IMG/VR virus record: IMGVR_UViG_3300046009_012809
Coordinates: 1 to 37,140 of that record
Strand: one strand, 5' to 3'
Source: a virus
DNA length: 37,140 nucleotides
In this document: piece after piece, positions 4,812 to 23,655 of the stretch
How positions within the stretch are numbered: position 1 is the first letter of the stretch
Layout: every line of letters starts with the position of its first letter
Notes under the pieces: generated by a model
Told to the model about the DNA's origin: nothing
Databases searched by the model: none
The model's input: only the letters and a program-made list of their open reading frames with translations
Translations under genes and position numbers: made by a program

Positions 4812-4817
4812 TTACAC
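4812..4817 (-). promoter_or_regulatory. GTGTAA start-proximal element
   Basis: GTGTAA on the minus strand, 8 nt before the ATG of the small acidic gene (4803). It is one of a set with fixed 8-9 nt spacing. The likely reading is the core of a phage promoter giving an almost leaderless transcript. Confidence 0.5.
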
Positions 4818-4823
4818 CTTATA

Positions 4824-4850
4824 TATTTGGCATTTTTGTTTTAGTAAATA
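4824..4850. repeat. Fifth copy of the 27-nt dyad repeat
   Basis: TATTTGGC, a T-rich centre, then TTAGTAAATA: 27 nt, the same length and start as the clustered copies at 4130-4263, with the last six bases TAAATA instead of CAAATA. It lies between the divergent starts at 4803 and 4870, next to both GTGTAA elements. That position argues for a regulatory role rather than a coding remnant. It also contains TATATTTG at 4822-4829. Confidence 0.7.
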
Positions 4851-4855
4851 AAATA

Positions 4856-4861
4856 GTGTAA
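4856..4861 (+). promoter_or_regulatory. GTGTAA start-proximal element
   Basis: GTGTAA, 8 nt before the ATG at 4870. No Shine-Dalgarno sequence lies between them. It follows directly after repeat copy 5. Confidence 0.5.
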
Positions 4862-4869
4862 AACATAAT

Positions 4870-5412
4870 ATGGCTTTGACTTATACCTATATCGCCTTAT
4901 CTTCAATTAGTACTACCCCATATTATAGACTAACAGGAGGAGGATGTACCATTGGGTCAAATGTAATAATTCCAGACTTTTACGATGATGGTATAAATGG
5001 AAGTTTACCTGTTAAGCAAATTGGTCAGTTCGTATTTATAAATTGTTCGGTTATAACATCTGTAATTACTGGCGATAATCTTATAGATATACAAAGAGGT
5101 TGTTTTGCTGGCGCAACTAATTTAAGATTTGTCCAATTTGGAAAAAAATTTTCTAGAATAGGTTTTAGAAGCTTTGAAAATAATAGTAATAATTTAGTAA
5201 TTATTTTTTTTGGAAATGCGCCTACGGTTTACGACGCATTAAATAATCCTAGTTCAATTGGAGGGATTGGAAATTCAACCTGTTATCGAATTGGTGGTAC
5301 TAAAGGCTGGGGAATAGAAAATACTTTTCAAGGAAGACCGCTTTTTTATTATTATAAAAACCTAATAAAAGCTGGTGGGACTGGAAAATTAACTACTAAA
5401 AAAAGAAACTAA
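4870..5412 (+). CDS. BspA-type leucine-rich-repeat protein, possible virion protein
   Basis: A 180-residue protein with BspA/LRR_5-type repeats: VKQIGQFVFINCSVITSVITGDNLIDIQRGCFAGATNLRFVQFGKKFSRIGFRSFENNS is described by positions 48-106 and has the I-x-x-x-x-F and L-x-x-V spacing of that fold. The N-terminus MALTYTYIALSSIS is strand-rich, without a signal peptide, as in many phage structural proteins. LRR_5 domains usually bind surfaces or other proteins, so a decoration or host-contact role is reasonable inference. The C-terminus is basic (TGKLTTKKRN). It has its own start element (GTGTAA at 4856) and is isolated between minus-strand genes. Confidence 0.65.
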   Translation: MALTYTYIALSSISTTPYYRLTGGGCTIGSNVIIPDFYDDGINGSLPVKQIGQFVFINCSVITSVITGDNLIDIQRGCFAGATNLRFVQFGKKFSRIGFRSFENNSNNLVIIFFGNAPTVYDALNNPSSIGGIGNSTCYRIGGTKGWGIENTFQGRPLFYYYKNLIKAGGTGKLTTKKRN

Positions 5413-5413
5413 T

Positions 5414-5501
5414 CGGAACGAGTAGGATTCGAACCTACGGATGATATAGAACCATCGGAAGCTTAGTAGGCTTCTGCTTTAGACCTCTCAGCCATCGTTC
5501 C
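5414..5501 (-). tRNA. tRNA-Ser, anticodon ACU
   Basis: An 88-nt type II tRNA on the minus strand. The acceptor stem GGAACGA pairs with TCGTTCC, followed by discriminator G; CCA is not encoded. The D arm reads TGGCTGAGAGGTCTAAAGC, typical of serine tRNAs. The anticodon stem GAAGC/GCTTC closes a seven-base loop CTACTAA, giving U33 and anticodon ACU, which pairs with the AGU serine codon. A long variable arm (CGATGG...CCATC-type pairing) and T arm with GGTTCGAATCC follow. Bacterial AGY-reading serine tRNAs normally have GCU, so A34 is unusual. It sits 2 nt downstream of the reductase stop codon and could be processed from that transcript. Confidence 0.93.
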
Positions 5502-5503
5502 AA

Positions 5504-6118
5504 TTACTTTAACCAAACAGATGTAGGATTATATGCTTCTGTATCAAGATAATCCCAAACTTTCCAATCTTTTTCTCCTTTAGAATAAGAGATAATGTTA
5601 GAAAGAAATGCTTGCAAATCTTCAATATGCCAAACATCGTCAAGTAATTTTTTACCAAGATATCTAGATTGATGAGCGACATGATCTGCGTAGCTGTATG
5701 CAAAAGCTGAAAATGGAGGAAGAACGCACCCCATTGAACAAAGGACACCCTGCATGCGAGAAGCTACTTCTTTCCCACCAACGGAATGCATAGTTACAAT
5801 TACTCCCGCTGGTTTACCAAGCAAATGCTTTTTGCCTTCGATCTCTGTCATTTTTTCAAAAAGTTGTTGCATATTTGAACCCCAACTATCCCAATATGTT
5901 CCAGTGCAAAAAATAAGGGCATCACTCTCTTTAATAATATGACGAACTTTTGGCCAATAGAAATCTTTATGAAGATGAACAATCTTTATCTTTATATTTG
6001 AATCAATACGATTAATTTTTTTTCTTATCTTCTTGATAAGAGATGCTGTATTGCCACTCTTTCCGCCAATCGATCCATTAATTATAGTAAGAGTTTTTTT
6101 CTTTTCTGGCGAGTTCAT
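5504..6118 (-). CDS. Flavodoxin-fold NAD(P)H-dependent reductase
   Basis: A 204-residue protein of the NADPH-dependent FMN reductase / flavodoxin-like superfamily. The phosphate-binding loop for FMN is NGSIGGKSGNT (14-24). The second flavin-binding loop is FCTGTYWDSWGSNMQQLFEKM, residues 70-90, and a third conserved segment follows (GVIVTMHSVGGKEVASRMQG, 105-124). Expected activity is reduction of flavin or a quinone-like substrate, but the natural substrate in a phage is unknown. It could supply electrons or counter oxidative stress. It overlaps the upstream small gene by 41 nt and ends 2 nt before the tRNA. Length agrees with family members. Confidence 0.82.
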   Translation of the reverse strand: MNSPEKKKTLTIINGSIGGKSGNTASLIKKIRKKINRIDSNIKIKIVHLHKDFYWPKVRHIIKESDALIFCTGTYWDSWGSNMQQLFEKMTEIEGKKHLLGKPAGVIVTMHSVGGKEVASRMQGVLCSMGCVLPPFSAFAYSYADHVAHQSRYLGKKLLDDVWHIEDLQAFLSNIISYSKGEKDWKVWDYLDTEAYNPTSVWLK

Positions 6119-6371
6119 CTATATAGTCCTTTATTATATTGTATAATCTAGATTCTTCTGGATTTGCTTCTCTCTCAACTTCATCAAAATTATAGAATAT
6201 ATATTCTTTTAATTGGTGGTGCTTGAATCTATGAATTCCTTTTTTATCGTCTCCACTAACGAATATATATCTAAATGGCAATGGTTCATTTTTTATTTTA
6301 TATAATTTTCCATATTTGAGAGAAATTGATTCGCTTTTATCTAAAAAATTTAATATCTTTTTAAAGATCAT
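6078..6371 (-). CDS. Small protein, unknown
   Basis: A 97-residue protein, basic overall: MIFKKILNFLDKSESISLKYGKLYKIKNEPLPFRYIFVSGDDKK, then a His-rich patch GIHRFKHHQLKEYIFYNF and an acidic helical end. I do not recognise a family. It starts with a 4-nt overlap (ATGA) with the preceding membrane-protein gene, and its last 41 nt overlap the start of the reductase gene, which is more than usual here. The reductase might therefore use a different start, but its flavin loop begins only 13 residues in, leaving little room to move it. Confidence 0.5.
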   Translation of the reverse strand: MIFKKILNFLDKSESISLKYGKLYKIKNEPLPFRYIFVSGDDKKGIHRFKHHQLKEYIFYNFDEVEREANPEESRLYNIIKDYIDELARKEKNSYYN

Positions 6372-6571
6372 AGGATTCCAAAAACCTTTAACATAACAAT
6401 TGAAGAAACGATTGCGCCGATCAGACTACTACAAGTTCTAATTATTTCTAATTTATGATTATGGTGATCTACCCATATCTCGAAAGGATCTCTTAGTTTT
6501 CCTTTCGCTAGGAGTTTCTTTCTTTGTTTTTTACTTAACTTTAGATTAGATATATCTCTTAATGTTATCAT
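6368..6571 (-). CDS. Small C-tail-anchored membrane protein
   Basis: A 67-residue protein starting MITLRDISNLKLSKKQRKKL. The first half is very basic; the end (SLIGAIVSSIVMLKVFGIL) is one transmembrane helix, predicting a tail-anchored inner-membrane protein with its basic domain in the cytoplasm. A start six codons upstream is open, but the chosen ATG makes the 4-nt ATGA overlap with the methyltransferase stop that is the rule in this window. Its own stop overlaps the next gene in the same way. Function is not recognisable. Confidence 0.55.
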   Translation of the reverse strand: MITLRDISNLKLSKKQRKKLLAKGKLRDPFEIWVDHHNHKLEIIRTCSSLIGAIVSSIVMLKVFGIL

Positions 6572-7215
6572 TTTTTTATTGCTCCCCATATTCCTGCAAA
6601 ATATCCAAAATCTTCAAATCGATCTTTTTTATCTCTTACTTCTTCATCTACCGCCTTTTTAAGTTCTTGGAAATCGCTTGCTGTAGGATCTGGATAATCA
6701 TGACCTATCATAATTCCATTCTTCTTTAATTTTGGATACCAAGCTAGAATATCAGCTTTTACATTTTCATAATCATGAGCTGCATCAATAAAGATAATAT
6801 CGCAACTCTCATCTTTATGTAAATTTACGATCTCTAACGAAGGCCCTTGTTGTATATTAACTCTATTTAAGAAATTAAATTTATTTAAATTTTGCTTAAA
6901 TTCTTCTAGGAGATTTGAAGTGTCAAGATCTTTATGCTCTTCACTACCTTTCCAAGTATCTACGCAATATATCTCTACATCTTTATGTTCTGTAGCAAAA
7001 CAAAAAACTGAACTAGATTTACCTTTCCAACTACCAACTTCTACAAGCTTACCCTTTAGATGAGATGCAATCGCATATAGTGTATATGCTTGATATGGCC
7101 ATAGCCATCCTTGTATTTGATCAACTGTAGCATATAACCCATCTAAGAATCTTTTGTCATATATTTGTATACTTTTTATATATTTATTAAACATCCCAAA
7201 ATTATTCATATTCAT
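6568..7215 (-). CDS. Class I SAM-dependent methyltransferase
   Basis: A 215-residue methyltransferase of the Methyltransf_24 type. The SAM-binding glycine loop is LVEVGSWKGKSS (57-68); the acidic end of strand 2 is CVDTW; the later motif IFIDAAHDYENVKADILAWYPKL and KNGIMIGHDY form the usual fourth and fifth strands. Enzymes with this pattern are often encoded beside glycosyltransferases and methylate sugars, but here the neighbours are unrelated small genes, so the acceptor is unknown. A related enzyme is in the glycan island (26891-27451), sharing the D-x-x-x-WYPKLKKNGI core. It overlaps small genes on both sides by 4 nt. Confidence 0.85.
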   Translation of the reverse strand: MNMNNFGMFNKYIKSIQIYDKRFLDGLYATVDQIQGWLWPYQAYTLYAIASHLKGKLVEVGSWKGKSSSVFCFATEHKDVEIYCVDTWKGSEEHKDLDTSNLLEEFKQNLNKFNFLNRVNIQQGPSLEIVNLHKDESCDIIFIDAAHDYENVKADILAWYPKLKKNGIMIGHDYPDPTASDFQELKKAVDEEVRDKKDRFEDFGYFAGIWGAIKK

Positions 7216-7385
7216 CTCTTCTTATTCCTTGCTGGTTTCCATAATATATCATTAATATCTAGATCAGAACTCCAAAGCATTAATTTTGAATATAATCCAT
7301 ATCCAAAGCCATTAAGCCATCGCATCGTTGTTCTACTTATAATATCTCCCATATAATAAAAAATATAAACAAAAAATAATCTCAT
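7212..7385 (-). CDS. Small conserved-type phage protein (57 aa)
   Basis: An unlisted 57-residue gene: MRLFFVYIFYYMGDIISRTT, then MRWLNGFGYGLYSKLMLWSSDLDI and a basic end (WKPARNKKR). The pattern MGDxxSR...GFGYxLYxxLMLWSxDLD is familiar from very small proteins of T4-like phages of unknown role. The stop codon makes an ATGA overlap with the methyltransferase gene, strong support that it is real. The first ten residues are aromatic and hydrophobic and could be a partial membrane segment; a start at the second Met (MGDIIS) is the alternative. It is the first gene of the minus-strand unit that runs to the tRNA. Confidence 0.7.
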   Translation of the reverse strand: MRLFFVYIFYYMGDIISRTTMRWLNGFGYGLYSKLMLWSSDLDINDILWKPARNKKR

Positions 7386-7438
7386 AATATATGATATTTT
7401 TTATAATAAATTATGTCTAATAATTATAATCTTAATAT

Positions 7439-7444
7439 GTGTAA
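7439..7444 (+). promoter_or_regulatory. GTGTAA start-proximal element
   Basis: GTGTAA, 9 nt before the ATG at 7454, with no Shine-Dalgarno sequence between. It lies in the divergent space between the minus-strand gene starting at 7385 and this plus-strand unit. Confidence 0.5.
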
Positions 7445-7453
7445 TACTACAAT

Positions 7454-8245
7454 ATGAGCGTTTGTCAACCAGATATCACATTCCCATCTTATTTAGATAA
7501 CTTGATTAAAGAGATTGAGCAGGGTAGCGATAAGAATAAGAAACAATGCGCTTGCTCACTAAAAGTTCAAAGAAATAATGATGGATGTCCAATTCTAGAT
7601 GATGATGATAAAGCTGGTGGATTCAATGAGTGTTTAAATATTGGTACTCCTCCAGAATCTGGCCCAGATACAAATTATCCATTTTCAATGAATTTATCTG
7701 AAATATCAAAGATATACTGGCAGGGAAAAAAATGGAAGATGACATTTTCTGTGAGTTCGTGGAATGAAACTGGTGATTGTGGAAGAAGTTCTGTTTTCTC
7801 GCAAGACGGAACAAATAATCCAAAAGAATCAAATATCATTGCTCCAGAGGATCTAAAAGAAAGGATCTGTTCTGCATCATTTCAAACTGCATCAACATCA
7901 GTTAATGGAAAATCAAAAGTTAAGCCTAACAGTGTAAATCCTTGTGAAGAAGAGTCTGAGACAGAAGCTGGCGCTTCTTTTGGTCCTACTGTAACAATAG
8001 ATCTATCTTCTTCATATCTACAAGAAGATGGTACTTTCTGGCCACATATTACATTAGGTGGTGGATTTAGTTTATCGCCAGTAGGCGCAACGAAAGTAAG
8101 AGCTAAATTACCAAATGGTATTGATTTTAAAATTTTTGGTAAAAAATTACCTAAAGTTTATTACGACTGGTATCCAGCCTGGCATGATGATGCAGCTTGG
8201 AATTGGAGCGGTGGAGTTATAGCGGATTTTGATGTACAATATTAA
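7454..8245 (+). CDS. Cysteine-containing beta-rich protein, candidate virion component
   Basis: A 263-residue protein with no signal peptide and eight cysteines, several in C-x-C or spaced pairs (QCACS at 32-36, GDCGRS). The composition is rich in Ser, Thr, Gly and Asn with many predicted strands (WKMTFSVSSWNETGDCG; FWPHITLGGGFSLSP), as in phage tail or decoration proteins. It ends with an aromatic stretch (YYDWYPAWHDDAAWNWSGG). I recognise no family. It resembles in style, though not clearly in sequence, the genes at 10794 and 23665, which also carry the GTGTAA start element. A structural role is inference from composition and shared promoter element. Confidence 0.5.
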   Translation: MSVCQPDITFPSYLDNLIKEIEQGSDKNKKQCACSLKVQRNNDGCPILDDDDKAGGFNECLNIGTPPESGPDTNYPFSMNLSEISKIYWQGKKWKMTFSVSSWNETGDCGRSSVFSQDGTNNPKESNIIAPEDLKERICSASFQTASTSVNGKSKVKPNSVNPCEEESETEAGASFGPTVTIDLSSSYLQEDGTFWPHITLGGGFSLSPVGATKVRAKLPNGIDFKIFGKKLPKVYYDWYPAWHDDAAWNWSGGVIADFDVQY

Positions 8246-8756
8246 TTTTTTAAATAAAGATATTGATTCTTTAAAATTAGAAAATATTTTTGAGTCTCTA
8301 ACAGATTTTGTTATTCTATTAAATGATAATAATATCTCATATGCTATCGGTGGATATCTATCTTTAGTTTTTAAAAGCAAAAAAATCTATAGGACTCCAA
8401 AAGATATTGATTTAAGTATTCATAATTGGGATGATTATAATAAATTAGAATCTATTCTTCGTTTAGATCCTAAATATAAAATAAGTCTTTCTAAAAATCA
8501 GATTGAGAAAGGCTCTGCGTTTAAGTTAACATTTAATTTAAATAGTATAATTATGAAAGTTAGAACGACAAAAAACGATACGCCTATAAGAATAGATATA
8601 TTCTATAATGAAAATGAACAAGACAAGGAAATATTTAAAATGAAAGATTTAGATATCTTTTATAACTACAAGACTTGTTTATCTACAAAAAAATATTATA
8701 TAGAAAACAGCTCATCTATAGATAAGCATCAAAAAGACTTATCTATGTTTATTTGA
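8232..8756 (+). CDS. Nucleotidyltransferase-fold protein
   Basis: A 174-residue protein with the signature of the DNA-polymerase-beta-like nucleotidyltransferase superfamily: YAIGGYLSLVF (Gly40, Gly41), a basic stretch, then RTPKDIDLSIH with metal-binding Asp58 and Asp60. A third acidic residue is likely in PIRIDIFYNENE. This arrangement matches the small AbiEii/MNT-like and uncharacterised nucleotidyltransferases, which transfer NMP to RNA, protein or small molecules. There is no adjacent HEPN or AbiEi partner, so a toxin-antitoxin role is not supported. An in-frame TTG precedes the ATG; I chose the ATG. It overlaps the upstream gene by 14 nt and ends 2 nt before the convergent adenylosuccinate synthetase. 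Confidence 0.65.
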   Translation: MYNINFLNKDIDSLKLENIFESLTDFVILLNDNNISYAIGGYLSLVFKSKKIYRTPKDIDLSIHNWDDYNKLESILRLDPKYKISLSKNQIEKGSAFKLTFNLNSIIMKVRTTKNDTPIRIDIFYNENEQDKEIFKMKDLDIFYNYKTCLSTKKYYIENSSSIDKHQKDLSMFI

Positions 8757-8758
8757 TT

Positions 8759-9751: not shown

Positions 9752-9786
9752 TATATTATTATAATCAAAATATAAAAGAAATACAA

Positions 9787-9792
9787 GTGTAA
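9787..9792 (+). promoter_or_regulatory. GTGTAA start-proximal element
   Basis: GTGTAA, 9 nt before the ATG at 9802, in the 50-nt divergent space between the adenylosuccinate synthetase and the membrane protein. Confidence 0.5.
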
Positions 9793-9801
9793 ATTACTTA
9801 T

Positions 9802-10779
9802 ATGTTTAAATATATATTAGGATTTTCAGCATTCGTATTAGCTTCGTGTGCAGCCTTCTTTTCTGTAAAAGGAATTGCTCTTCTTTTTGCTGCAAGCTTT
9901 TGGAGCGTAGCAGTAATGGCTGGTAGCCTTGAACTGGCTAAACTAATATCAGCTAGTTATCTCTATCGTTACTGGAAAGAAATAAATAGAATTCTTAAAA
10001 ACTATATGTTAGCGGCAACTATTCTGCTCATGGGTATTACTAGTCTTGGTATATTTGGTTTTCTTTCGGACGCATTTCAAAGAAATTTCTCGCAATATAG
10101 CTTAAACTTATCAAAGATTAATAGTCTAAAATCTCAACAGACTTTCATAACTTCTCAGATAGAATTTAATAAGAATAAATTAAAAGATTTAATAGAGCTT
10201 CAAAAGACATATCAATCATCTTTAGATAATGCAGTCAAACAAGATGTGACTACTACAAAAACTACAAGTGGTGGATTATTTAATAGTGGTAAAACTGAAA
10301 AAGTTACAGATATAAAATTAGTAGAAAGCAGAAATAAAATAGTAGAAGGGTCTCAGCAGAATATTAATAATCTATTCTCGCAAATATCTACTGTTACTAG
10401 TGACCTTCAAAATTTAGAGAAACAATCTTCTGAAAATGCTCAGACTATTATACAATTAGAAAGCGATAATACGAAGGGCGAGATAGGCACATTTAAATTT
10501 GTTGCAGAGGCTTTTGGTATGAATATAGAAACTGCTGTAAGAATATTTATTATATTAATAGTAATTGTATTTGATCCACTAGCAGTTTGCTTAGTAATAG
10601 CTTATAATTCTTTAAATAAAAAAGAATATAAAATAGAAACAAAAGAGATCGTTAAAGAACAGAAAATAGAAAAGATAGTAGAAAAACCTATAGAAAAATT
10701 AAAAATTATTTATAGAGACTTTAAAAGAGGAACAAAAGCTAGACACAATCCAGATTTCGCAGATCCTAATCTAAATTAG
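9802..10779 (+). CDS. Four-helix membrane protein with long coiled coil
   Basis: A 325-residue protein. Three hydrophobic helices occupy roughly residues 4-22, 24-45 and 68-90; a polar, heptad-rich coiled coil spans about 95-235 (KINSLKSQQTFITSQIEFNK onward, with many Gln, Asn and Ser); a fourth helix follows at 246-270 (IFIILIVIVFDPLAVCLVIAYN), and the C-terminus is a charged KIVEKPIEKLK-type tail. The phrase VFDPLAV is shared with large membrane/coiled-coil proteins in other phages, where function is unknown. The topology puts a rod between membrane segments, which could act in virion-associated membrane contact or host membrane remodelling. It has its own GTGTAA element. Confidence 0.65.
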   Translation: MFKYILGFSAFVLASCAAFFSVKGIALLFAASFWSVAVMAGSLELAKLISASYLYRYWKEINRILKNYMLAATILLMGITSLGIFGFLSDAFQRNFSQYSLNLSKINSLKSQQTFITSQIEFNKNKLKDLIELQKTYQSSLDNAVKQDVTTTKTTSGGLFNSGKTEKVTDIKLVESRNKIVEGSQQNINNLFSQISTVTSDLQNLEKQSSENAQTIIQLESDNTKGEIGTFKFVAEAFGMNIETAVRIFIILIVIVFDPLAVCLVIAYNSLNKKEYKIETKEIVKEQKIEKIVEKPIEKLKIIYRDFKRGTKARHNPDFADPNLN

Positions 10780-10784
10780 TGTAA
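10779..10784 (+). promoter_or_regulatory. GTGTAA start-proximal element
   Basis: GTGTAA, 9 nt before the ATG at 10794. The first base overlaps the stop codon of the preceding gene, showing that even closely packed genes carry their own copy. Confidence 0.5.
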
Positions 10785-10793
10785 TTTTTTCAT

Positions 10794-11957
10794 ATGTCAT
10801 CTTCATGCTCTTCAGAATATAATGTATGCTCGGCTTGCGCACCAAATTTAAGTTTATTTGCTATAAGTACCAGTGTTTCTCAGGCTAAATTTGGATATGC
10901 GTGTTTGGATGAAAGTGCTGGTGGCCCATTTCTTGCTACTTCTACTAGTTCTAATTTAAACAGCCAAGGTATAGAAACTCTTATCTGTGGCGCAAATAAT
11001 ACACTTTGCTCATACTCCTTCTCATCTCGTTTAAATTATGGAGTAGATAGTTATGGTCAAATATTTATAGGAACAAATAGTAGTTTACTTTACTCGTATA
11101 ATATTTATTCTAAAGATGGATGTGGTTCTTGTTCTCCACCAAGCCAATCTTCTAACACAGACTATTACTCTAGTCAAACTATCTCTAAAAGAAATGCTTG
11201 TGAAGAAGACAGAACAATATCTTCCGATTCATTTGGACCACCAAACCTTTGCATGGTTCCTTGTGATAGCGCAGGATGCTCTAATTCATATTCATGTGAA
11301 AAAGTAATCAATACAGAATCTGATAGTACTAATTTTAATGGCATATTTACACCTACTCCTCCATGTACTGATTGTAATGGCAATCCTATAACATGTCCAC
11401 CTCCATTTGGTTATTCTGTAACATCTAATTTATCTGCAAACATTATCAAATCCGTATCAAACATCTGTACCTTATCTCTCGTTTACAGCCTTTGTAAATC
11501 TTCAGCAGAAGTAAAAATGTCTCTTCTAGAATCTAATGGACCTCAAAATTGTCAAAATGGAAAATGTGGAGATGGAAAAAAAGATGATTGCTGGGGAATC
11601 ACTTCATCTTTCTCAATAACTGATAATAATCTCGATGATCCTAGCGCAAACTCTACCACATCTCAGAAACTAAAGTTTAAAATTGCTGCTCCCAAAGAAG
11701 GTTTCGATGAAAAATATAAGAGTATTTCTGGAAGGGTTATTTTTTATTATGGTGGAACTGAAGGAAAGACTCCTTGCTGTGATGATGATTTTGATGGTAC
11801 GATTGTAGAGGAAAAATCGTACTCTATCTCATCTGGGCCAACTTTTAAGGATGATTATTTTGCGGTAGATTGTGGCGACTTTGATAACGACAATCAAAGT
11901 CTAGTAGGCGAAACTATAAATATTTGTTATACTGTAGATAATATTTCTTTTATTTAA
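10794..11957 (+). CDS. Highly cysteine-rich protein, candidate virion component
   Basis: A 387-residue protein with about 25 cysteines by my count, clustered as C-x-x-C and C-x-(5-6)-C pairs: NVCSACAPN (11-19), DGCGSCSPP, LCMVPCDSAGCSNSYSCEKV, PPCTDCNGNPITCPPP, NCQNGKCGDGKKDDCWG and TPCCDDD. There is no signal peptide or membrane segment. Ser, Asn and Gly are abundant and the C-terminal third is strand-rich and acidic. The spacing could fit zinc sites or disulfides; disulfides in a protein lacking a signal peptide would fit an assembled virion surface after lysis. No family is recognised. It overlaps the convergent small gene at 11954 by 4 nt. Confidence 0.55.
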   Translation: MSSSCSSEYNVCSACAPNLSLFAISTSVSQAKFGYACLDESAGGPFLATSTSSNLNSQGIETLICGANNTLCSYSFSSRLNYGVDSYGQIFIGTNSSLLYSYNIYSKDGCGSCSPPSQSSNTDYYSSQTISKRNACEEDRTISSDSFGPPNLCMVPCDSAGCSNSYSCEKVINTESDSTNFNGIFTPTPPCTDCNGNPITCPPPFGYSVTSNLSANIIKSVSNICTLSLVYSLCKSSAEVKMSLLESNGPQNCQNGKCGDGKKDDCWGITSSFSITDNNLDDPSANSTTSQKLKFKIAAPKEGFDEKYKSISGRVIFYYGGTEGKTPCCDDDFDGTIVEEKSYSISSGPTFKDDYFAVDCGDFDNDNQSLVGETINICYTVDNISFI

Positions 11958-15120: not shown

Positions 15121-15122
15121 TT

Positions 15123-15716
15123 ATGAATATAACACTAGACGATAATACATTAGTAAAAAACGTACAAGAAAAGAATGATGAAGAAGCGTTAAAAATGCTT
15201 ATAGATCGTCATTCTGCTCTTTGCAACTCTTTATATAAAAAATACTCTAACTCTATGCTTAATTCTGGCGTTTATTTGCAAGATATCGTAGATCAAAAAG
15301 ATTATATAGTATATAAATCTGCAATGTCTTTTGATCCTTGTAAAAACTCAAAATTCTCAACTTGGTTATATAATCAAGTTAGATATCAGTGCTTAAATTG
15401 TATGAATGAAAATAGTCACTATTTAACATTAGAGACTGATAAACTTAACTATATTATAGAAAAACAAGCTCCGCCTGAAAAAGAGTATAAAAATATTAAT
15501 GAATATATATTTAATATTATTGATTCTTGTTCAGATAAAAGAGTCCAAAAGATATTCAAGATGAGGTATCTAAATAATAGTAATAAAAAAATGCCTTGGA
15601 ATAAAATAGCTAAAAAACTAAAGATTAGTACTCAAACAGCTATAAATATTCATAATAAAGCTTTAAAGCTACTAAAAAATAAAATAGAGAGTAAAAATTG
15701 TTTTGACAAAATTTAA
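15123..15716 (+). CDS. Sigma-70-family RNA polymerase sigma factor
   Basis: A 197-residue factor with sigma regions 2 and 4 only. Region 2 spans about 15-95: EEALKMLIDRHSALCNSLYKKY (2.1), QDIVDQKDYIVYKSAMSFDP (2.2, with the coiled-coil binding face), KFSTWLYNQVRYQCLN (2.3/2.4). Region 4 spans about 135-190: RVQKIFKMRYLNNSNKKMPW and an HTH (NKIAKKLKISTQTAINIHNKALKLLKNKI). The short form with no region 1 or 3 matches the late sigma factors of T4-like phages (gp55 type). It probably redirects host RNA polymerase to a phage promoter class, and the GTGTAA elements in this window are natural candidates. It begins 3 nt after the kinase stop. Confidence 0.85.
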   Translation: MNITLDDNTLVKNVQEKNDEEALKMLIDRHSALCNSLYKKYSNSMLNSGVYLQDIVDQKDYIVYKSAMSFDPCKNSKFSTWLYNQVRYQCLNCMNENSHYLTLETDKLNYIIEKQAPPEKEYKNINEYIFNIIDSCSDKRVQKIFKMRYLNNSNKKMPWNKIAKKLKISTQTAINIHNKALKLLKNKIESKNCFDKI

Positions 15717-17134: not shown

Positions 17135-17484
17135 TGCCTATATATACATATATACATCCAGAAACGGAAGAAACTATTGATATCGTACAATCTGTACACG
17201 ACAAACATATATATATTGACTCAAAAGGTATTGAATGGAAAAGAGTTTTTACTGTTCCAGAAATAAATACTCAAGGCACATTAAAAGCAACATGCTCCGA
17301 TAAAGAGTTTTCAGAGTTTACAAAAAATAAAAAAGGAACACTAGGAGATATGTTTGATCGTAGTGCTGAACTTTCTGAAAAAAGAAAAAAGATATATGGT
17401 AAAGATCCTGTAAAAGAAAAGTATTTCAAAGATTGGTCAAAAAAACGCAAAGGAAAGATACACCCAAAAAGTCAGTCAGACTGA
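17134..17484 (+). CDS. FmdB-like small protein without zinc cysteines
   Basis: A 116-residue protein starting MPIYTYIHPETEETIDIVQSVHDKHIY, which mirrors the start of FmdB-type zinc-ribbon proteins (MPxYxFxC) and their phage relatives, but the zinc cysteines are missing from this segment; only one Cys is present (ATCSDKEF). The middle (WKRVFTVPEINTQGTL) matches the family pattern, and the C-terminus is a basic helical tail (KKRKGKIHPKSQSD). Role unknown. The start codon shares one base with the preceding stop codon (TAATG), indicating coupling. I place it in this family with moderate confidence only. Confidence 0.55.
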   Translation: MPIYTYIHPETEETIDIVQSVHDKHIYIDSKGIEWKRVFTVPEINTQGTLKATCSDKEFSEFTKNKKGTLGDMFDRSAELSEKRKKIYGKDPVKEKYFKDWSKKRKGKIHPKSQSD

Positions 17485-17554
17485 ATTGTTTATAACTTTC
17501 TATTTTTTTCTTTATTAATTCTAAAAATCAATGTAATATTATACTCATAGTGTT

Positions 17555-19810
17555 ATGAGTATAAAAGTAAAAAAAAGAAGTGGTTCAACTGAAAATTTTA
17601 ATATAGAAAAAATTCATAGAGTAATCAACTGGGCAATTAAAGATTTGTCTAATGTAAGCTTAACCGACGTAGAGATTAACGCAAAGATTAGTATCAATGA
17701 TGGTGTTACTACTAAAGAGATTCATAAACTCTTAATTGAATCTGCAGCAAATTTGATATCAATAGAAAAACCTAATTATCAATATGTAGCCGGTAGACTT
17801 TTAAATTATCAATTGCGTAAGGATGTTTGGAAAGGTAAACATGCTCCCAGACTATTAGAATTTATTAATCAAGGACTAAAAAATAAAATATATGACCCTA
17901 TTATTCTAGAAAAATATGACGAAGATGAATTAAATAAGATGGGAGAATTTATAGATCATGAAAGAGACTATAATTTCACCTACGCTGGTATAAAACAATT
18001 ATGCGATAAGTATCTTATTAAAGATCGCGTCACAGGTAAAATATATGAAACTCCGCAATTCGCTTACATATTAATCTCTGCCTATGCTTTTATAAATTAT
18101 CCAAAAGAGAATAGATTAAGTTATGTTCGTAAGTTCTATGACGCAATCAGTAAACATAAAATAAATCTTCCAACTCCTGTAATGGCTGGAGTAAGAACTC
18201 CAAGTAAAAATTATGCAAGTTGCTGTTTAATTGGAGTAGATGATAGTAGGGATAGTATAACTGCTAGTGCTACAGCTGTAAGTATGGCTACTGCTAGTAG
18301 ATGTGGAATTGGAATTGATGTATCAAAGATTAGAGCTATCGGTTCTCCAATTAAGAATGGGGAAGTCGTTCATACTGGTTTGATCCCATTTCTTAAAATT
18401 TATGAAAGTAGTGTTAAGGCATGGCAACAAAATGGTCTTCGCGGAGGAAGCGCTACTTGCAATATTCAATGGTGGCATTATGAGATCGAAGACATTGTAG
18501 TGTTAAAAAATAATGCAGGTACAGATGATAATCGCGTCCGCAAATTAGATTATACAGTCGGTATGAGTAAACTATTCTATGATAGAGTATTAAAAGATGA
18601 AGATATTACTTTATTTAATACAGCTGAAGTTCCAGAACTATATGAAGCTTGGGGAACTAAAGACTTCGATAAGTTATATAAAGAATGCGAATCTAAAAAA
18701 CTAAAAATCAAGAAAAAAGTATCTGCTCGTAAGTTATTCTCTTTAATTATCAAAGAAAGAGTAGAAACTGGTAGAATTTATATTCTTAACGTAGATCACG
18801 CTAATAATCATGGAGCTTGGTTAGATAAAGTCACAATGAGTAATCTTTGTACTGAAGTTATCCACCCAACTACTCCATTAAATGACTATCACGACAAAAA
18901 TGGCGAAATTGGTATGTGCATTCTTTCGGCAGTGAATATGCTAGAAATTAAAAACTGGCAGGATCTTGAAAAGACTTGCGATCTTATCGTAAGATTTCTA
19001 GATGAAATCATTGAAATTCAAGATTACTTCAATATTGCTGCTGAAAATTTTGCAAAAAAACGTCGTAGTCTTGGAATTGGTATAACTAATTTGGCAGCCT
19101 ATCTTGCTAAAAATGAATTAAAATACACCTCAGATAAAACACTTCCAATTCTTGATGAATGGATGGAACATTTTCAATACTACCTTTTAAAGTCAAGTTT
19201 AGAGCTTGCTAAAGAAAAAGGTAAATGCGAAAAATTTGACAGGACAAAATACTCGAAAGGAATTCTACCTATTGATACTTACAAAGATAAAGTAGATGAA
19301 TTATGTAAAAGGAAATTATCTCTTGATTGGGAAAAATTAAGAAAAGAAATAAAAGAATTTGGATTAAGACATTCTACATTATCATCTTGTATGCCATGCG
19401 AAAGTAGTTCTGTAATTCAATCTTCAACTAATGGCGTAGAACCAATTCGTAGTTTAATTACTTATAAAATGAGCAAGATGGGTAAGTTACCAGTACTAGT
19501 TCCTGGAGTTGGAAAGTATGATGAGAATTATGAATTAGCGTATGATTTTAAAGATAACTCAGGTTTATTAAAAATTAACGCTATTATTCAAAAGTATATT
19601 GACATGGCGATATCAACTAATGTATACTATAATTATTCTCATTATGAAAATAATGTTCTTCCAGACGCAAAAGTAATGAAAGAAATTATGCAAGCATATT
19701 CTCTTGGTCTAATTAGTCTTTATTATAATAATACTGACGATGGCGATAAGGAGCAGTTAATGAATCAAAAAGAAGATCGCGATTGTTCTTCTGGAGCGTG
19801 TAAATTATAA
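17555..19810 (+). CDS. nrdA: Class Ia ribonucleotide reductase, large subunit
   Basis: A 751-residue protein, nearly the length of E. coli NrdA (761). It reduces NDPs to dNDPs with the radical-bearing small subunit. An ATP-cone domain occupies about residues 1-95 (KVKKRSGSTENFNIEKIHRVI...NYQYVAGRL). Active-site cysteines are Cys223 (in NYASCCLIG) and Cys455 (MCILSAVNM), with the thiyl cysteine Cys432 in NLCTEVIHP beside Asn430 and Glu434. The tyrosine pair YY is at 723-724 (SLYYNNTDDG) and the tail ends CSSGACKL, with the redox-shuttle cysteines, as in CESGACKI of E. coli. The start TAATATTATACTCATAGTGTT region upstream holds no clear Shine-Dalgarno. The small subunit follows after 3 nt. Confidence 0.96.
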   Translation: MSIKVKKRSGSTENFNIEKIHRVINWAIKDLSNVSLTDVEINAKISINDGVTTKEIHKLLIESAANLISIEKPNYQYVAGRLLNYQLRKDVWKGKHAPRLLEFINQGLKNKIYDPIILEKYDEDELNKMGEFIDHERDYNFTYAGIKQLCDKYLIKDRVTGKIYETPQFAYILISAYAFINYPKENRLSYVRKFYDAISKHKINLPTPVMAGVRTPSKNYASCCLIGVDDSRDSITASATAVSMATASRCGIGIDVSKIRAIGSPIKNGEVVHTGLIPFLKIYESSVKAWQQNGLRGGSATCNIQWWHYEIEDIVVLKNNAGTDDNRVRKLDYTVGMSKLFYDRVLKDEDITLFNTAEVPELYEAWGTKDFDKLYKECESKKLKIKKKVSARKLFSLIIKERVETGRIYILNVDHANNHGAWLDKVTMSNLCTEVIHPTTPLNDYHDKNGEIGMCILSAVNMLEIKNWQDLEKTCDLIVRFLDEIIEIQDYFNIAAENFAKKRRSLGIGITNLAAYLAKNELKYTSDKTLPILDEWMEHFQYYLLKSSLELAKEKGKCEKFDRTKYSKGILPIDTYKDKVDELCKRKLSLDWEKLRKEIKEFGLRHSTLSSCMPCESSSVIQSSTNGVEPIRSLITYKMSKMGKLPVLVPGVGKYDENYELAYDFKDNSGLLKINAIIQKYIDMAISTNVYYNYSHYENNVLPDAKVMKEIMQAYSLGLISLYYNNTDDGDKEQLMNQKEDRDCSSGACKL

Positions 19811-19813
19811 CCT

Positions 19814-20878
19814 ATGAAAAGTGTTTTAAATCTTAAAAATATAGATTATACAAAGCAACCATTATTCTTTGGCGAAGATCTTAATCTTCAAAGATATGAT
19901 CGTTTTAAATATCCTATCTTTTTTGAGTTATTTAAAAAACAAGAAGAATTCTTTTGGTGGCCTCATGAGATTGCTTTAAATAAAGATCGTAGCGATTATA
20001 AAGAATTGGCTGGTCAAGAAAGATTTGTTTTTGACACTAATTTAAAATTTCAAACTCTTGGGGATAGTATGCTCTCAAGAAGTATCCATTCATTAAAAGA
20101 TTACGTAAGTAATCCAGAACTTGAAATATGCATGAATACTTGGCAAAGATTCGAAGGAATACATAGTTATTCTTATTCATATTTACTCAATAATGTTCAT
20201 CCAGACGCTAGTAAATTCTTTGATAGCATTATGGAAGATAAAGAAATTGTATCCCGTGCCGAATTAATAAGAAATAATTTTGATAAAATACTTGGAGATG
20301 ATGATAAGAAAGATCTAAAACAGAAAATCTTTGATTGTATTCTTTCTGTTAATGTTATGGAAGGACTTGTGTTCTATGTATCATTTGCCTGTTCATTTTA
20401 TTTTGGATATCGTGGAAAAATGGAAGGTAATGCTAAAATTATTAAGTTTATTCAAAGAGATGAAGCTTTACATTTTGCTACAACCCAAAATCTACTTAAA
20501 ATTCTTAAAGAGGAAGATAAAGAAGGTTTTACTTCTATCGTAAAGAAAAGTGAAGATAAAGTATATGCGTTTTATGAACAAGCTGCTAAAAATGAAATCG
20601 AGTGGGCTGAGTATCTATTTAGCAAAGGGTCTCTACTAGGATTAAACGCTGAAGTTCTAGGTGGTTACTCTAAATGGCTTTGCGATGCTCGTTTGCGATC
20701 ATTAGGATATAAGAAAATTTTTAATCAAAAAGATAATCCTATTGCTGGTTGGTTGGATAGCTATCTTGATAGTAGCAAGGTCCAAGTTGCTCCACAAGAA
20801 ACAGAAATTTCAACGTATAAAATTGGTGCAAGAAAAACTGATATATCTGATGACGATTTTGGCGATATGAAGCTATAA
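19814..20878 (+). CDS. nrdB: Class Ia ribonucleotide reductase, small subunit
   Basis: A 354-residue R2 protein. The diiron ligands are all present: Asp84, Glu114, His117, Glu183, Glu217 and His220 (motifs LGDSML, FEGIHSYSY, VMEGL, RDEALHF). The radical tyrosine Tyr121 in HSYSY is retained, so a Fe2-Tyr class Ia enzyme is predicted. The C-terminus (DDDFGDMKL) is the acidic tail that docks into NrdA. It starts 3 nt after NrdA. GTGTAA also occurs 10 nt before this ATG, inside the last codons of nrdA, but there it is part of Cys-Lys-Leu codons and may be coincidence. Confidence 0.96.
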   Translation: MKSVLNLKNIDYTKQPLFFGEDLNLQRYDRFKYPIFFELFKKQEEFFWWPHEIALNKDRSDYKELAGQERFVFDTNLKFQTLGDSMLSRSIHSLKDYVSNPELEICMNTWQRFEGIHSYSYSYLLNNVHPDASKFFDSIMEDKEIVSRAELIRNNFDKILGDDDKKDLKQKIFDCILSVNVMEGLVFYVSFACSFYFGYRGKMEGNAKIIKFIQRDEALHFATTQNLLKILKEEDKEGFTSIVKKSEDKVYAFYEQAAKNEIEWAEYLFSKGSLLGLNAEVLGGYSKWLCDARLRSLGYKKIFNQKDNPIAGWLDSYLDSSKVQVAPQETEISTYKIGARKTDISDDDFGDMKL

Positions 20879-20901
20879 TATAATACAAAAGTGTATTATA
20901 T
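20878..20901 (+). other. Perfect 9-bp AT-rich hairpin after nrdB
   Basis: ATATAATAC (20878-20886) pairs with GTATTATAT (20893-20901) around a 6-nt loop. It begins at the last base of the nrdB stop codon. The right arm overlaps the GTGTAT element of the next gene. There is no U-run after it, so it is not a standard terminator. It could protect an mRNA end, or only reflect AT-rich sequence. Confidence 0.4.
20891..20896 (+). promoter_or_regulatory. GTGTAT start-proximal element
   Basis: GTGTAT, 8 nt before the GTG start at 20905. It lies in the loop and right arm of the hairpin at 20878-20901. Last base differs from the common GTGTAA. Confidence 0.4.
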
Positions 20902-20904
20902 AGT

Positions 20905-21105
20905 GTGAACGAAACTAAAAAGAAAAAGAAAGTAAATCAACTAACAATTAAAGAGTGCGAAGCTATCCTAACTAGACTAGCTGGACAAGTAGAATGTAAG
21001 TATTATCAGCATGTTTTAAATCACTATAGAAGGCTATTACCTTCTCATGGGATGGCTATTGAACTATCTAATATCCCAAGTGATAATAATGCAACTTTAC
21101 CTTAA
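20905..21105 (+). CDS. Small basic protein, unknown
   Basis: A 66-residue protein with a GTG start: (M)NETKKKKKVNQLTIKECEAIL, then TRLAGQVECKYYQHVLNHYRRLLP and a polar tail (NIPSDNNATLP). The first ten residues are lysine-rich, and the middle is a probable pair of helices with two Cys. The pattern VNQLTxKECEAIL...Q-x-ECKYYQHVL...YRxLLP looks like a conserved small phage protein, but I cannot name it. The GTG start follows the GTGTAT element after 8 nt; no ATG is in frame. Confidence 0.55.
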   Translation: MNETKKKKKVNQLTIKECEAILTRLAGQVECKYYQHVLNHYRRLLPSHGMAIELSNIPSDNNATLP

Positions 21106-21131
21106 TTTTAATTAAAAATAATAATCTATAA

Positions 21132-21137
21132 GTGTAA
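21132..21137 (+). promoter_or_regulatory. GTGTAA start-proximal element
   Basis: GTGTAA, 8 nt before the GTG start at 21146. Context ATAAGTGTAAATATAT. Confidence 0.5.
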
Positions 21138-21145
21138 ATATATGT

Positions 21146-21484
21146 GTGAATTTAGATATCACAACAGTATTTAATCTTGTAATAGGAGCCTTATCATTCC
21201 TAGGCGGATGGCTTTTTACTAGAGTATTTTCTATATCTGATAGGCAAGAGAAGCTTATTAAAGATTTAAATGATAAAACTTTTAGTGATTTTATAGCTTT
21301 AAGAAAAGAAGTAGAAATTGAAAGTAGAAAACATCAGCAAGAGATAGCCGATTTAGCACTAAAAGTTAGCACTACTTATGTAACTAAAGAATCATTTGAA
21401 GCTTATTTTGATAGAATAGAAGCTAAACTAGATCGTAATTTTGAAACAATACAAAATTATTTAATGAACAAAAATAAAAATTAA
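21146..21484 (+). CDS. Membrane-anchored coiled-coil protein
   Basis: A 112-residue protein with a GTG start. An N-terminal hydrophobic helix (TVFNLVIGALSFLGGWLFTRVF, residues 7-28, described by position) precedes a long charged coiled coil (about 35-110: SDRQEKLIKDLNDKTFSDFI, RKEVEIESRKHQQEIADLAL, FEAYFDRIEAKLDRNFETIQNYL). This single-TM plus coiled-coil plan is common in phage lysis or virion-associated proteins; the N-out or N-in orientation is not determinable. It could be an accessory to holin or spanin, though no lysis genes are nearby, so this remains a guess. Confidence 0.6.
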   Translation: MNLDITTVFNLVIGALSFLGGWLFTRVFSISDRQEKLIKDLNDKTFSDFIALRKEVEIESRKHQQEIADLALKVSTTYVTKESFEAYFDRIEAKLDRNFETIQNYLMNKNKN

Positions 21485-21490
21485 CTGTAA
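21485..21490 (+). promoter_or_regulatory. CTGTAA start-proximal element
   Basis: CTGTAA, 8 nt before the GTG start at 21499. It begins on the bases just after the stop codon of the preceding gene. Confidence 0.35.
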
Positions 21491-21498
21491 TAGTTAAT

Positions 21499-22014
21499 GT
21501 GACGGTTTCTGAAAGAGATATAGATTTTTTTGCTAAAAAATTAGGCTTATCACCAGAAAAGACTTTCCTATTATTACAAGATCCAGATTGTCTGCCAGAG
21601 ATTTTAAATAAAGTATCAGAGGATAATATAGATGGTATTGTGGATATTAGTTTTCCAGTTTTTGCAGAACTAACTATAATAAAATATAGTAAAGATTTAA
21701 ATTACTCATTTGAAGAAAAGGAATATATATCTGAGACGGTTGGTACAAAATTCTATGATCTTATAGAATATCCATTGCAAAATAAATATTTTTTTACGTT
21801 AGAACATAATGAAGACACAGCGAAATCTGTATTAGTATTTCTAGGTTTCTTTTATAAAGGTTTATATAAAACTAGAAGATGTTATCCATCTGAAAATATA
21901 TATTATAATATAGCAAAAAATGGCTTTGAGAATTCAGAAAAAGAAGAGATATCTTATCATTTAAAAGATTGGATTAAAGTATTAAGAATCATACATAATG
22001 AAGTTTGGTTTTAA
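21499..22014 (+). CDS. Protein of unknown function, mostly helical
   Basis: A 171-residue protein with a GTG start: (M)TVSERDIDFFAKKLGLSPEK, then helical and aromatic segments including FLGFFYKGLYKTRRCYPS and EISYHLKDWIKVLRIIHNEVWF at the end. It is acidic in the first half and basic in the second. No family or catalytic motif is recognised, and there is no signal peptide. It is the last protein gene before the gene-free, structured stretch 22015-22400. A CTGTAA element precedes it. Confidence 0.5.
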   Translation: MTVSERDIDFFAKKLGLSPEKTFLLLQDPDCLPEILNKVSEDNIDGIVDISFPVFAELTIIKYSKDLNYSFEEKEYISETVGTKFYDLIEYPLQNKYFFTLEHNEDTAKSVLVFLGFFYKGLYKTRRCYPSENIYYNIAKNGFENSEKEEISYHLKDWIKVLRIIHNEVWF

Positions 22015-22049
22015 TACTAAATCCTCAAATTATTTAACTTTTCTTTGAT

Positions 22050-22320
22050 ATCCAAAAGGGCTTTACCTCCAGATTTTATATATCTGAAGTTGGGTATTAT
22101 CAATCCAACTTTTCTTTTGACTCCAAATTTACCGCGATCTCAGCGATAAACGGGCCATCGCACTTATGGGTCAGAGGTAGCTTCGACCACTACATTCTGC
22201 GATGCCTATAGCTACATTTCCTTCAAAAGCCATATTATGTACAAAAGAAGGTTTTAATAGTTGTCAGCCCTTTAGACATTGCTATCTCAAGGATTGATAG
22301 TTGATTATTTGACATCAACA
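22050..22320 (+). ncRNA. Candidate structured noncoding RNA, unidentified
   Basis: Bases 22015-22400 hold no gene, but hold many perfect inverted repeats. A long-range pair AAAGGGCT (22055-22062) / AGCCCTTT (22266-22273) encloses hairpins CAGAT/ATCTG (22070-22086), AAGTTGG/CCAACTT (22087-22111), CATCGCA/TGCGATG (22156-22204), and, inside the last, GTAG/CTAC (22177-22193), which with GGTC/GACC (22169-22188) would form an H-type pseudoknot. A further GTTGAT/ATCAAC hairpin follows at 22300-22319, then a T-rich run near 22360. These stems use GC pairs in an AT-rich genome. Conserved cores of RNase P RNA, SRP RNA, 6S RNA and group I introns were not found. Strand is assigned by the trailing T-run only. 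Confidence 0.55.
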
Positions 22321-22400
22321 AACTGCTCTAATTGGAAGCTATGTTAACTTATATACTATTATTTTTTTATTTTTTTGTCAAATCTTTTTATAATATATAA

Positions 22401-22610
22401 ATGGAAATAATTAAAAATAAAGCTAAGTGGTCAGTTTATTCTCAAAAGTGCATAAAGCATTATAATATAAACAATGAGAATATTTATGACGAACCTAATG
22501 AATATCCATGTATCGCAATACCTCAATTAATATCAGATATAAATGGCTCAAGAGTTAAATTTAATTTTGTTTACAAAAAAGATTGCCAAAAATTATTAAA
22601 AGCTTTATAA
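22401..22610 (+). CDS. Small protein, unknown
   Basis: A 69-residue basic protein: MEIIKNKAKWSVYSQKCIKHYN, then DEPNEYPCIAIPQLISDINGSRVKFNFVYKKDCQKLLKAL. It has three Cys, no signal peptide and probable alpha/beta character. No known family is recognised. It lies between the structured RNA region and the tmRNA, with a 12-nt distance from its stop to the GTGTAA element of the tmRNA. TTATAA lies 7 nt before its ATG. Confidence 0.5.
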   Translation: MEIIKNKAKWSVYSQKCIKHYNINNENIYDEPNEYPCIAIPQLISDINGSRVKFNFVYKKDCQKLLKAL

Positions 22611-22611
22611 T

Positions 22612-22617
22612 GTGTAA
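22612..22617 (+). promoter_or_regulatory. GTGTAA element upstream of tmRNA
   Basis: GTGTAA located 24 nt before the mature tmRNA 5' end, with no ORF start at 8-9 nt. If GTGTAA acts as a promoter core, transcription would begin near 22626 and a short leader would be removed by RNase P. This instance argues against GTGTAA being a ribosome-binding signal. Confidence 0.45.
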
Positions 22618-22640
22618 AATAGTATAAGTTCTTTCTCATT

Positions 22641-23028
22641 GGGCCAGATTTGGTTTCGATTTTAGGAATCGGAATTAGAATGCAAGTAGAGGTTTAGGTG
22701 GGTCTCTTTAAAAAGCCTTAAAAGTATTAACTGCCAAAACAGCTAAATACAAAGGTCATATCTCTGCTAGAGTTTCTCTAGTTGAGGAGACCGTTTCTGT
22801 AGCTTAAGTTCTACAGCGTGATTACCATGACACATCTAATGGATAGTTGCGTATTTAGATGTCTTCTCTTATAAAGTTTTTTTATTCTTTATAAGTTTAG
22901 TATTCAAAATAGAATCGCCGAGTATGTTTGTTCTTTATCTATACAAAGCTAAACACAAAAAGAACTAAACTTGTAGTATTTTAATTTAAATTCACTAAAA
23001 GACGGGGATTCGATTTCCCCCTGGTCCA
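22641..23028 (+). ncRNA. ssrA: tmRNA (transfer-messenger RNA)
   Basis: A 388-nt tmRNA. Its 5' end GGGCCAG pairs with CTGGTCC at 23021-23027 to form the 7-bp acceptor stem (one G-U), with discriminator A; CCA is not encoded. The T arm is GGGGATTCGATTTCCCC (23004-23020), and the 5' part GATTTGGTTTCGAT matches the D-arm-like region of known tmRNAs. The resume codon is GCC at 22733, preceded by TTAACT, and the tag reads 24 residues, AKTAKYKGHISARV ... VEETVSVA, ending at TAA (22805). Later helices include CTTATAAAG/CTTTATAAG. The tag is long compared with E. coli (11 residues). It rescues stalled ribosomes together with host SmpB. Phage tmRNAs are known in some mycobacteriophages and large phages. 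Confidence 0.93.
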
Positions 23029-23094
23029 AGTAAACGAATCTACTCGTCTCCATATTTATTAGAAATTTAATCACAAACAAAATATCATCTTAAT

Positions 23095-23646
23095 ATGGCA
23101 AGATCAATTGTAAAAGTAAAATGCACTTATTGTGGAAATGAATTCCAAAAATTAAAATCAGAATACGACAGAAAAATAAAAAATAATACCACAAATTTTT
23201 TCTGTAATTTAAAATGTTCGGGTCATTATTTTGATACGAAACACTTAGATAAATATAGAAAAATTTATAGTAAAAATATAAAAAATTATTCAAATAACAG
23301 ACTAGATGAGTTCAGTTCAATTAAATATTATTTAAATAGATGTATTTATCGAAGCAAAAAGAAAGGTATAAAATCTGATCTTACTTTAGAATATCTCAAA
23401 GATCTTTGGGAAAAACAAAACGGAATTTGTCCATATACTGGAATAAAAATGGAATTACCTAGAACAACTGCAGATGAAGATGTGAAAAAAACCCCAACTA
23501 AAGCAAGCCTAGATCAAATTATCCCATCCAAAGGTTATATAAAAGGTAATGTAGAATTTGTTTGCTATAGCATAAATGTAGCAAAAAATGATTTTTCTAA
23601 AGAAGAAATGATAGATTTTATTAATAAAATTAAAAAATATACATAA
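23095..23646 (+). CDS. HNH-type endonuclease with N-terminal zinc ribbon
   Basis: A 183-residue protein. The N-terminus has a zinc ribbon (CTYCG 10-14 and CNLKCSGHYF 37-46, four Cys). The C-terminal nuclease domain has CPYTG (112-116), then ASLDQIIPSKGYIKGNVEFVC (137-157) and NVAKND (161-166). This is the SLDxI..KGYxxGNVxxV...N..KND type of HNH found in phage homing endonucleases, with Gln141 where Arg or His often stands. It is free-standing, 67 nt after the tmRNA, and may be a mobile homing gene. Activity and target are unknown. It starts ATG after AATATCATCTTAAT and has no GTGTAA element. Confidence 0.72.
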   Translation: MARSIVKVKCTYCGNEFQKLKSEYDRKIKNNTTNFFCNLKCSGHYFDTKHLDKYRKIYSKNIKNYSNNRLDEFSSIKYYLNRCIYRSKKKGIKSDLTLEYLKDLWEKQNGICPYTGIKMELPRTTADEDVKKTPTKASLDQIIPSKGYIKGNVEFVCYSINVAKNDFSKEEMIDFINKIKKYT

Positions 23647-23649
23647 TAT

Positions 23650-23655
23650 GTGTAT
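23650..23655 (+). promoter_or_regulatory. GTGTAT start-proximal element
   Basis: GTGTAT, 9 nt before the ATG at 23665. It starts 4 nt after the HNH stop codon. It supports choosing 23665 rather than the ATG overlapping it. Confidence 0.45.

Follow-up and report, generated by a model that had tools for sequence, protein, structure and literature searches.

The stretch of DNA analysed here, which we call the window, is the complete 37,140-base virus record IMGVR_UViG_3300046009_012809 of IMG/VR, with a G+C content of 25 to 33 percent. It encodes an ATP-dependent ligase, a ribonucleotide reductase, a sigma-like protein (protein A below), a serine transfer RNA (tRNA-Ser) and a transfer-messenger RNA (tmRNA). 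The phage appears to belong to a widespread family of uncultured bacterial viruses. Our subject is the hexamer GTGTAA, which stands at a fixed, short distance before many start codons in these genomes. We consider it probable that GTGTAA is the -10-like element of a phage-specific promoter that produces leaderless or near-leaderless messenger RNAs (mRNAs), probably late, with a phage sigma-like protein as its reader.

In what follows, a gap of n means that n nucleotides (nt) separate the box from the start codon. Of 53 window starts, comprising called genes and short open reading frames (ORFs), nine carry GTGTAA (six), GTGTAT (two) or CTGTAA (one) at gap 8 or 9, exactly as an earlier note on this DNA had listed them. 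GTGTAA lies on the minus strand at 4812..4817 (gap 8, start 4803) and on the plus strand at 4856..4861 (gap 8, start 4870), 7439..7444 (gap 9, start 7454), 9787..9792 (gap 9, start 9802), 10779..10784 (gap 9, start 10794) and 21132..21137 (gap 8, GTG start 21146). The variants are all on the plus strand: GTGTAT at 20891..20896 (gap 8, GTG start 20905, a 66-amino-acid ORF not called by the gene caller) and at 23650..23655 (gap 9, start 23665), and CTGTAA at 21485..21490 (gap 8, GTG start 21499). The motif or a variant recurs in 7/8 family members of the 4803 gene (at gap 7-13), in 6/8 for 9802 and in 7/7 for 21146. Resampled upstream sequence yields a mean of 0.08 such starts and a maximum of 3 in 2,000 draws. 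GGAG, GAGG and AGGA are all missing from the 20 nt preceding each of the nine starts, in agreement with the reported scarcity of Shine-Dalgarno (SD) sequences at these genes.

The remaining four GTGTAA sites in the window comprise two within genes (at 7932, and at 11347 on the minus strand), one upstream of the tmRNA and one at 19798..19803 (plus strand), 10 nt before NrdB and inside the last NrdA codons (Cys-Lys). The last of these is retained in 86 percent of 7 NrdB family members, and is probably a coincidence rather than a promoter. As a word, GTGTAA occurs in the window no more often than chance would have it (10 sites, compared with 12.3 in shuffled sequence, standard deviation 3.5), as might be expected if its placement were an accident of an AT-rich genome or of the way in which start codons were chosen. 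We find such an artefact scarcely credible, however. Of the ten sites, six occupy a gap-8 or gap-9 position relative to one of the 53 starts (binomial P about 2e-15), the gene caller picks starts by codon score and start-codon type alone, and the related records described below give the same answer.

Relatives were collected through the gene for protein A (19 loci) and through the 9802 gene (15 loci), with two contigs common to both; the longest related record, G006, spans 133.6 kilobases. Our main set draws on the window and seven related IMG/VR records and contains 831 gene starts, of which 829 were used for class overlaps. Starts without an upstream stop were dropped, as were those lying less than 60 nt from the end of a stretch (less than 90 nt for the 829 starts and for the family set). 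To control for kinship, one member was drawn from each of 445 gene families in 50 draws.

Among all hexamers tested over the 831 starts, GTGTAA at gap 8-9 forms the strongest positional peak, with 2 occurrences at gap 7, 45 at gap 8, 28 at gap 9, 15 at gap 10, 10 at gap 11 and 5 at gap 12. The one-per-family draws place it first in 50/50, the mean count rising from 1.4 at gap 7 to 35.5 at gap 8. The peak at 8-9 nt whose absence would have counted against the earlier note is present in the relatives. The distribution breaks off sharply below gap 8 and has a tail that fades by gap 13. Counted as GTGTAA-N7-9-ATG, the pattern has 104 matches spread over 15/15 records, some of which overlap or are near-identical, versus 19 for the reversed pattern; ten further records contribute 80 versus 13, with a match in 9/10. 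Six families keep the motif in all of their members (24/24, 14/14, 9/9, 8/8, 7/7 and 7/7), the first two of which look like versions of one gene. It is these fractions that constitute independent evidence, since hexamer identities within families are conditioned on the presence of the motif. GTG starts are enriched as well (19/210 versus 25/997 distinct starts), 12 of the 19 coming from three families.

The sequence around the start codon carries an initiator-like signature. The majority base immediately before it is T in 41 of 43 gap-8 families and A in none, compared with T in 164 of 299 families without any signal (P 3e-8). A pyrimidine/purine step is usual at transcription starts, and the T found at this place in gap-8 genes therefore fits transcription beginning on the start codon itself. 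The hard edge at gap 8 and the short tail likewise point to a start about 9 nt past the hexamer, since the mRNA would not include a start codon placed any further upstream. The fading of the tail by gap 13 is in line with an observation in L. cremoris, in which, according to PMC10986495, leaders of 4-14 nt were not seen.

GTGTAA also stands apart from other signals. We define a GTGTAA class as GTGTAA, GTGTAT or CTGTAA at gap 7-12. It accounts for 115 of the 829 starts, while 120 belong to a sigma70-type class described below and 119 have an SD sequence. The GTGTAA class overlaps the sigma70 class at a single start and the SD class at two. No -35 element accompanies it: across 73 aligned GTGTAA sites, all positions 16-45 nt upstream hold 0.25 bits or less. 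The class is rare at tight same-strand junctions, those with 4 nt or less between genes (6/352), and common where the upstream neighbour lies on the opposite strand (37/93). Close attachment to start codons and near-exclusion of SD sequences (2/115) could also be read in another way, with GTGTAA as an RNA-level translation signal that replaces the SD sequence within a normal 5' leader. Several features speak against this. GTGTAA is nearly exclusive with sigma70 promoters too (1/115), its spacing is one-sided with a hard edge, and its distribution over tight and divergent junctions is that just given. A further objection comes from the tmRNA, and with it we judge an RNA-level role to be quite improbable.

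The tmRNA gene occupies 22641..23028 on the plus strand, and GTGTAA lies upstream of it at 22612..22617 on the same strand. The earlier note had recorded this site at 24 nt; the site is real, and its distance to the mature 5' end is 23 nt. In the window, TTGCCA (22583-22588), a 17-nt spacer and TATAAT (22606-22611) directly precede the hexamer, giving what resembles a composite promoter region. GTGTAA is found 22-23 nt before the tmRNA in 13/13 loci examined (the window and 12 relatives), and TATAAT adjoins it in 12/13, the two being one base apart in L042. These 13 were taken from 15 tmRNA matches, leaving out L022 (which lies on the contig of L018) and L014 (identical here to L011), whose upstream regions agree with the others when read separately. 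As the 5' end of tmRNA is untranslated, this conservation argues that GTGTAA acts at the level of DNA, and the loci examined support the earlier assertion that it is not a ribosome-binding signal. As a separate observation, the tag peptide encoded by the phage tmRNA is long and conserved and ends in SVA (window; L001, L002, L003, L006 and others).

A second set of promoter-like sequences is also placed at start codons in these genomes. Over the 831 starts, the positional peak of TTGACA lies at gap 28-29 and that of TATAAT at gap 6-8, which is the layout of a host sigma70 promoter with a TTGACA-like -35 and a TATAAT-like -10. Seventy-seven families have a near-consensus -10 box at gap 5-8 and lack GTGTAA; among them, 30 per draw carry TTGA 18-19 nt upstream of that box, against an expectation of 1.2. 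Judging by this arrangement, the second class too would initiate transcription at the start codon. Both this class and the phage sigma-like genes had been missed in the earlier note, which had treated the sequences before starts 1120 and 1999 as weaker versions of GTGTAA. These fit the sigma70-type class instead: on the minus strand, TTGACT (2029-2034) and TATAAT (2007-2012) form a site at 2007..2034 with gap 7 before 1999, which is sigma70-type in 6/6 family members, and TTGACA (1150-1155) and TAAACT (1127-1132) form one at 1127..1155 with gap 6 before 1120, the -35 element standing at gap 29 and the -10 box conforming to TANNNT in each case. A third supposed weak version, TAGTAA before 13578, does lie at gap 9, but the gene is called from 13648 and we assign the site to neither class. 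A further promoter-like set, with TAGA replacing TTGA, is present in 8 of the 77 families and is too thin to class; a TAGA...TATAAT sequence of this kind heads the operon of a second sigma-like protein, protein B, lying before the gene that precedes B in 42/43 members.

The two main classes are divided by gene family and region. Sigma70-type sites mark the gp41-like helicase (5/5), the 1337-1999 gene (6/6) and IMP dehydrogenase (8/11), and GTGTAA marks other families, including the two that follow terminase on G006 (37/41 and 24/24). Around the gene for protein B, 485 distinct starts at 46 loci include 67 with GTGTAA at gap 8-9 and one with TTGACA at gap 28-29. It is on the basis of this split that we infer the GTGTAA class to be late.

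The existence of a sigma70 class raises the question of whether GTGTAA could simply be a variant -10 box of the host sigma70 holoenzyme, perhaps assisted by a phage activator and with no involvement of a phage sigma. TGTAAT is one base from TATAAT, the two classes are nearly equidistant from start codons, and phage activators can replace a -35 contact. The change from TATAAT to TGTAAT, however, concerns a base that matters strongly to sigma70. The GTGTAA class moreover has no -35 element, and only 1/115 of its members combines a TATAAT-like -10 with a TTGACA-like -35 across a 16-18 nt spacer. The two classes seldom coincide, and sigma-like genes are present in the phages. On balance we regard a host sigma70 variant as possible but doubtful.

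Two phage proteins are candidates for the reader of GTGTAA. Protein A, encoded at 15123..15716 on the plus strand of the window, contains sigma regions 2 and 4. It matches RpoD over both regions, with an expectation value (E) of 7e-7, and also an extracytoplasmic function (ECF) chimera. The best fold match of its low-confidence model (predicted template modelling score, pTM, 0.41) has E 0.0068, and its region 4 resembles domain 4 of S. aureus SigA (TM 0.75 by target, E 0.4). Protein B, which has a cysteine-rich insert, is encoded on the plus strand of the longest relative (L035:17239-17922), and on G006 its gene lies about 2 kilobases before that for terminase. It is present in 3/15 records and was found at 48 loci. 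B has a weak Pfam region-2 match, assigned to it by inspection, and a PHROG sigma match over region 2 (E 0.0035). It has no sequence match in the PDB, and the fold matches listed for its low-confidence model (pTM 0.39), none better than E 0.0047, bear the titles of sigma factors or of polymerase complexes. The likeness of A to ECF/RpoD-type sigma factors comes from sequence, and for B the fold titles hint at one. Among 50,697 named phage records, A has one weak match (E 0.03) and B has none.

Genes for the beta and beta' subunits of RNA polymerase were not found in 10 records, all of them possibly fragments, in a search that recovered 14/14 controls; a search for single-subunit RNA polymerases recovered 0/14 controls and is uninformative. 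Since sigma-like genes are present and no beta or beta' gene was found, host polymerase with a phage sigma is the likeliest reader of GTGTAA. Clues to the host phylum may lie in two further proteins of the longest relative, one PEP-CTERM-like (L035:8550-9296) and one pilin-like (L035:11736-12404). A host search with the latter returned 13 weak matches in several phyla, including Planctomycetes, and no host.

We are now able to propose a mechanism for this promoter class. GTGTAA, or in its extended form GTGTAAWW, would serve as the -10-like element of a probably late promoter without a -35, recognised by the host's RNA polymerase in complex with a sigma-like protein of the phage. The predicted transcription start, some 9 nt beyond the hexamer, would coincide with the start codon's first base or precede it by no more than about 5 nt, and the resulting leaderless or near-leaderless mRNAs would be translated without an SD sequence. 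The suggestion of a -10-like element with near-leaderless mRNAs, already made in the earlier note, is the best-supported reading, given the spacing geometry, the T before the start codon, the near-exclusion of SD and sigma70 signals and the conservation at the tmRNA.

Several observations nonetheless weigh against this mechanism. The models of A and B are of low confidence and neither protein is tied to GTGTAA. A and B occur together on two records, G006 and G013, the others being fragments, and on G013 protein A has fallen to 43.5 percent identity (B, 67 percent) while GTGTAA persists, a pattern that leans weakly towards B as the reader. On the same record GTGTAA ranks third among hexamers, with a blunter peak at gaps 8-11. 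Taken record by record it is top in 6/8, with TTGACA leading in G004, and the most distant contig bearing the gene for protein B (5.5 kilobases) contains no GTGTAA match. In the set of regions around that gene, repeated words from one conserved region outrank GTGTAA; this set is dominated by orthologues of a single region, for which the one-per-family draws correct. The T signature is unclear at gap-9 genes (12/20 families), and some leaders may thus be about 2 nt long. Finally, no GTGTAA lies in the 53 nt preceding terminase on G006, and a weak capsid candidate is preceded by an SD sequence instead; these two genes would need read-through or another promoter.

The earlier note had likened GTGTAA to the late promoters of T4, and the comparison is apt as an analogy but not as a statement of descent. 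T4-type late promoters are gp55-dependent, with an 8-bp box that has positions -13/-12 at its start. Like the GTGTAA class, they combine a -10-like box with no conserved -35 and A+T-rich downstream sequence. TGTAA of the phage motif aligns with TATAA of the T4 octamer, which would place the start codon of gap-8 genes at +1. The GTGTAA class does not conform to the T4 TATAAATA-like octamer, having a G at the second box position and another G preceding it, and T4 late mRNAs differ from those proposed here in possessing leaders with SD sequences. In architecture the T4 late promoter is nonetheless the closest of the known systems compared, and Aeh1 is noted as having a/gC at -13/-12 (PMC2988020). 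Comparison of A and B by hhalign with gp55 of the T4-like pelagiphage HTVC008M detected no relation, with probabilities of 0.21 percent and 0.05 percent, respectively, from shallow alignments against one sequence.

The ribonucleotide reductase of the window matches that of HTVC008M at 54 percent. Kinship with T4 on the strength of this match was considered and rejected, in view of the Pol III-type polymerase and lambda J-type tail protein of the longest relative. Among the matches listed (the second list giving 25 of 51 families) in a Pfam scan of 88 G006 proteins, about 60 percent of its gene calls, are DNA polymerase III alpha, DnaB-type helicase and minor tail families, and a protein of 1,230 amino acids has a match in the J family of tail fibres. 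When 47 reference proteins of HTVC008M were compared with the genes of the window and G006, matches were found solely for NrdA, NrdB, PhoH (34 percent), terminase (27 percent) and gp41 helicase (24 percent). In HTVC008M itself (KC465899, L071-L073), the T4-type box TAAATA stands at gap 5 before 8/166 starts, several of them structural, hinting at leaderless late mRNAs in that pelagiphage too. Totals for TAAATA-N2-12-ATG are not above the reversed-pattern control in either HTVC008M (39 versus 43) or T4 (48 versus 57).

In its geometry, with a -10-like box set for initiation on the start codon and SD sequences nearly absent, the GTGTAA class has the attributes of a leaderless promoter. PMC12340547 and PMC3160421 describe TANNNT just before the ORF, without an SD sequence and giving leaderless mRNA, in Deinococcus-Thermus and other groups. 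The TATAAT class of our phages shares this layout, whereas GTGTAA is carried by phages and departs from TANNNT. According to a review (PMC3594737), most middle and late mRNAs of the Thermus phage phiYS40 lack a leader, and the phage raises IF2 and lowers IF3. This is a different phage in a different host, and the likeness concerns leaderless mRNA. Phage transcripts are often leaderless, those of AR9 being an exception, as stated in PMC5312081. Titles and abstract openings in the open-licence library searched name no GTGTAA promoter motif of this kind, and nothing on the motif appears in the parts consulted of PMC3037559, PMC7403470 and PMC7892664.

We put at about even the chances that this phage family runs a largely leaderless programme, with early and middle genes under sigma70-type promoters and late genes under GTGTAA with a dedicated phage sigma, both initiating on the start codon. 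If the messages are indeed leaderless, ribosomes must start on them without their usual landing site, and two leaderless promoter classes in one phage family would offer a natural system for studying ribosome initiation on a bare AUG. With the GTGTAA signature, the annotation of start codons and operons could be corrected in many genomes of uncultured phages, and the analysis supplies two sigma-like candidates for testing.

The tRNA-Ser of the window (5413-5502, minus strand) has the anticodon ACT, with A at the wobble position, and recurs in many related loci. In bacteria, the anticodon of the tRNA-Ser that reads these codons is normally GCT.

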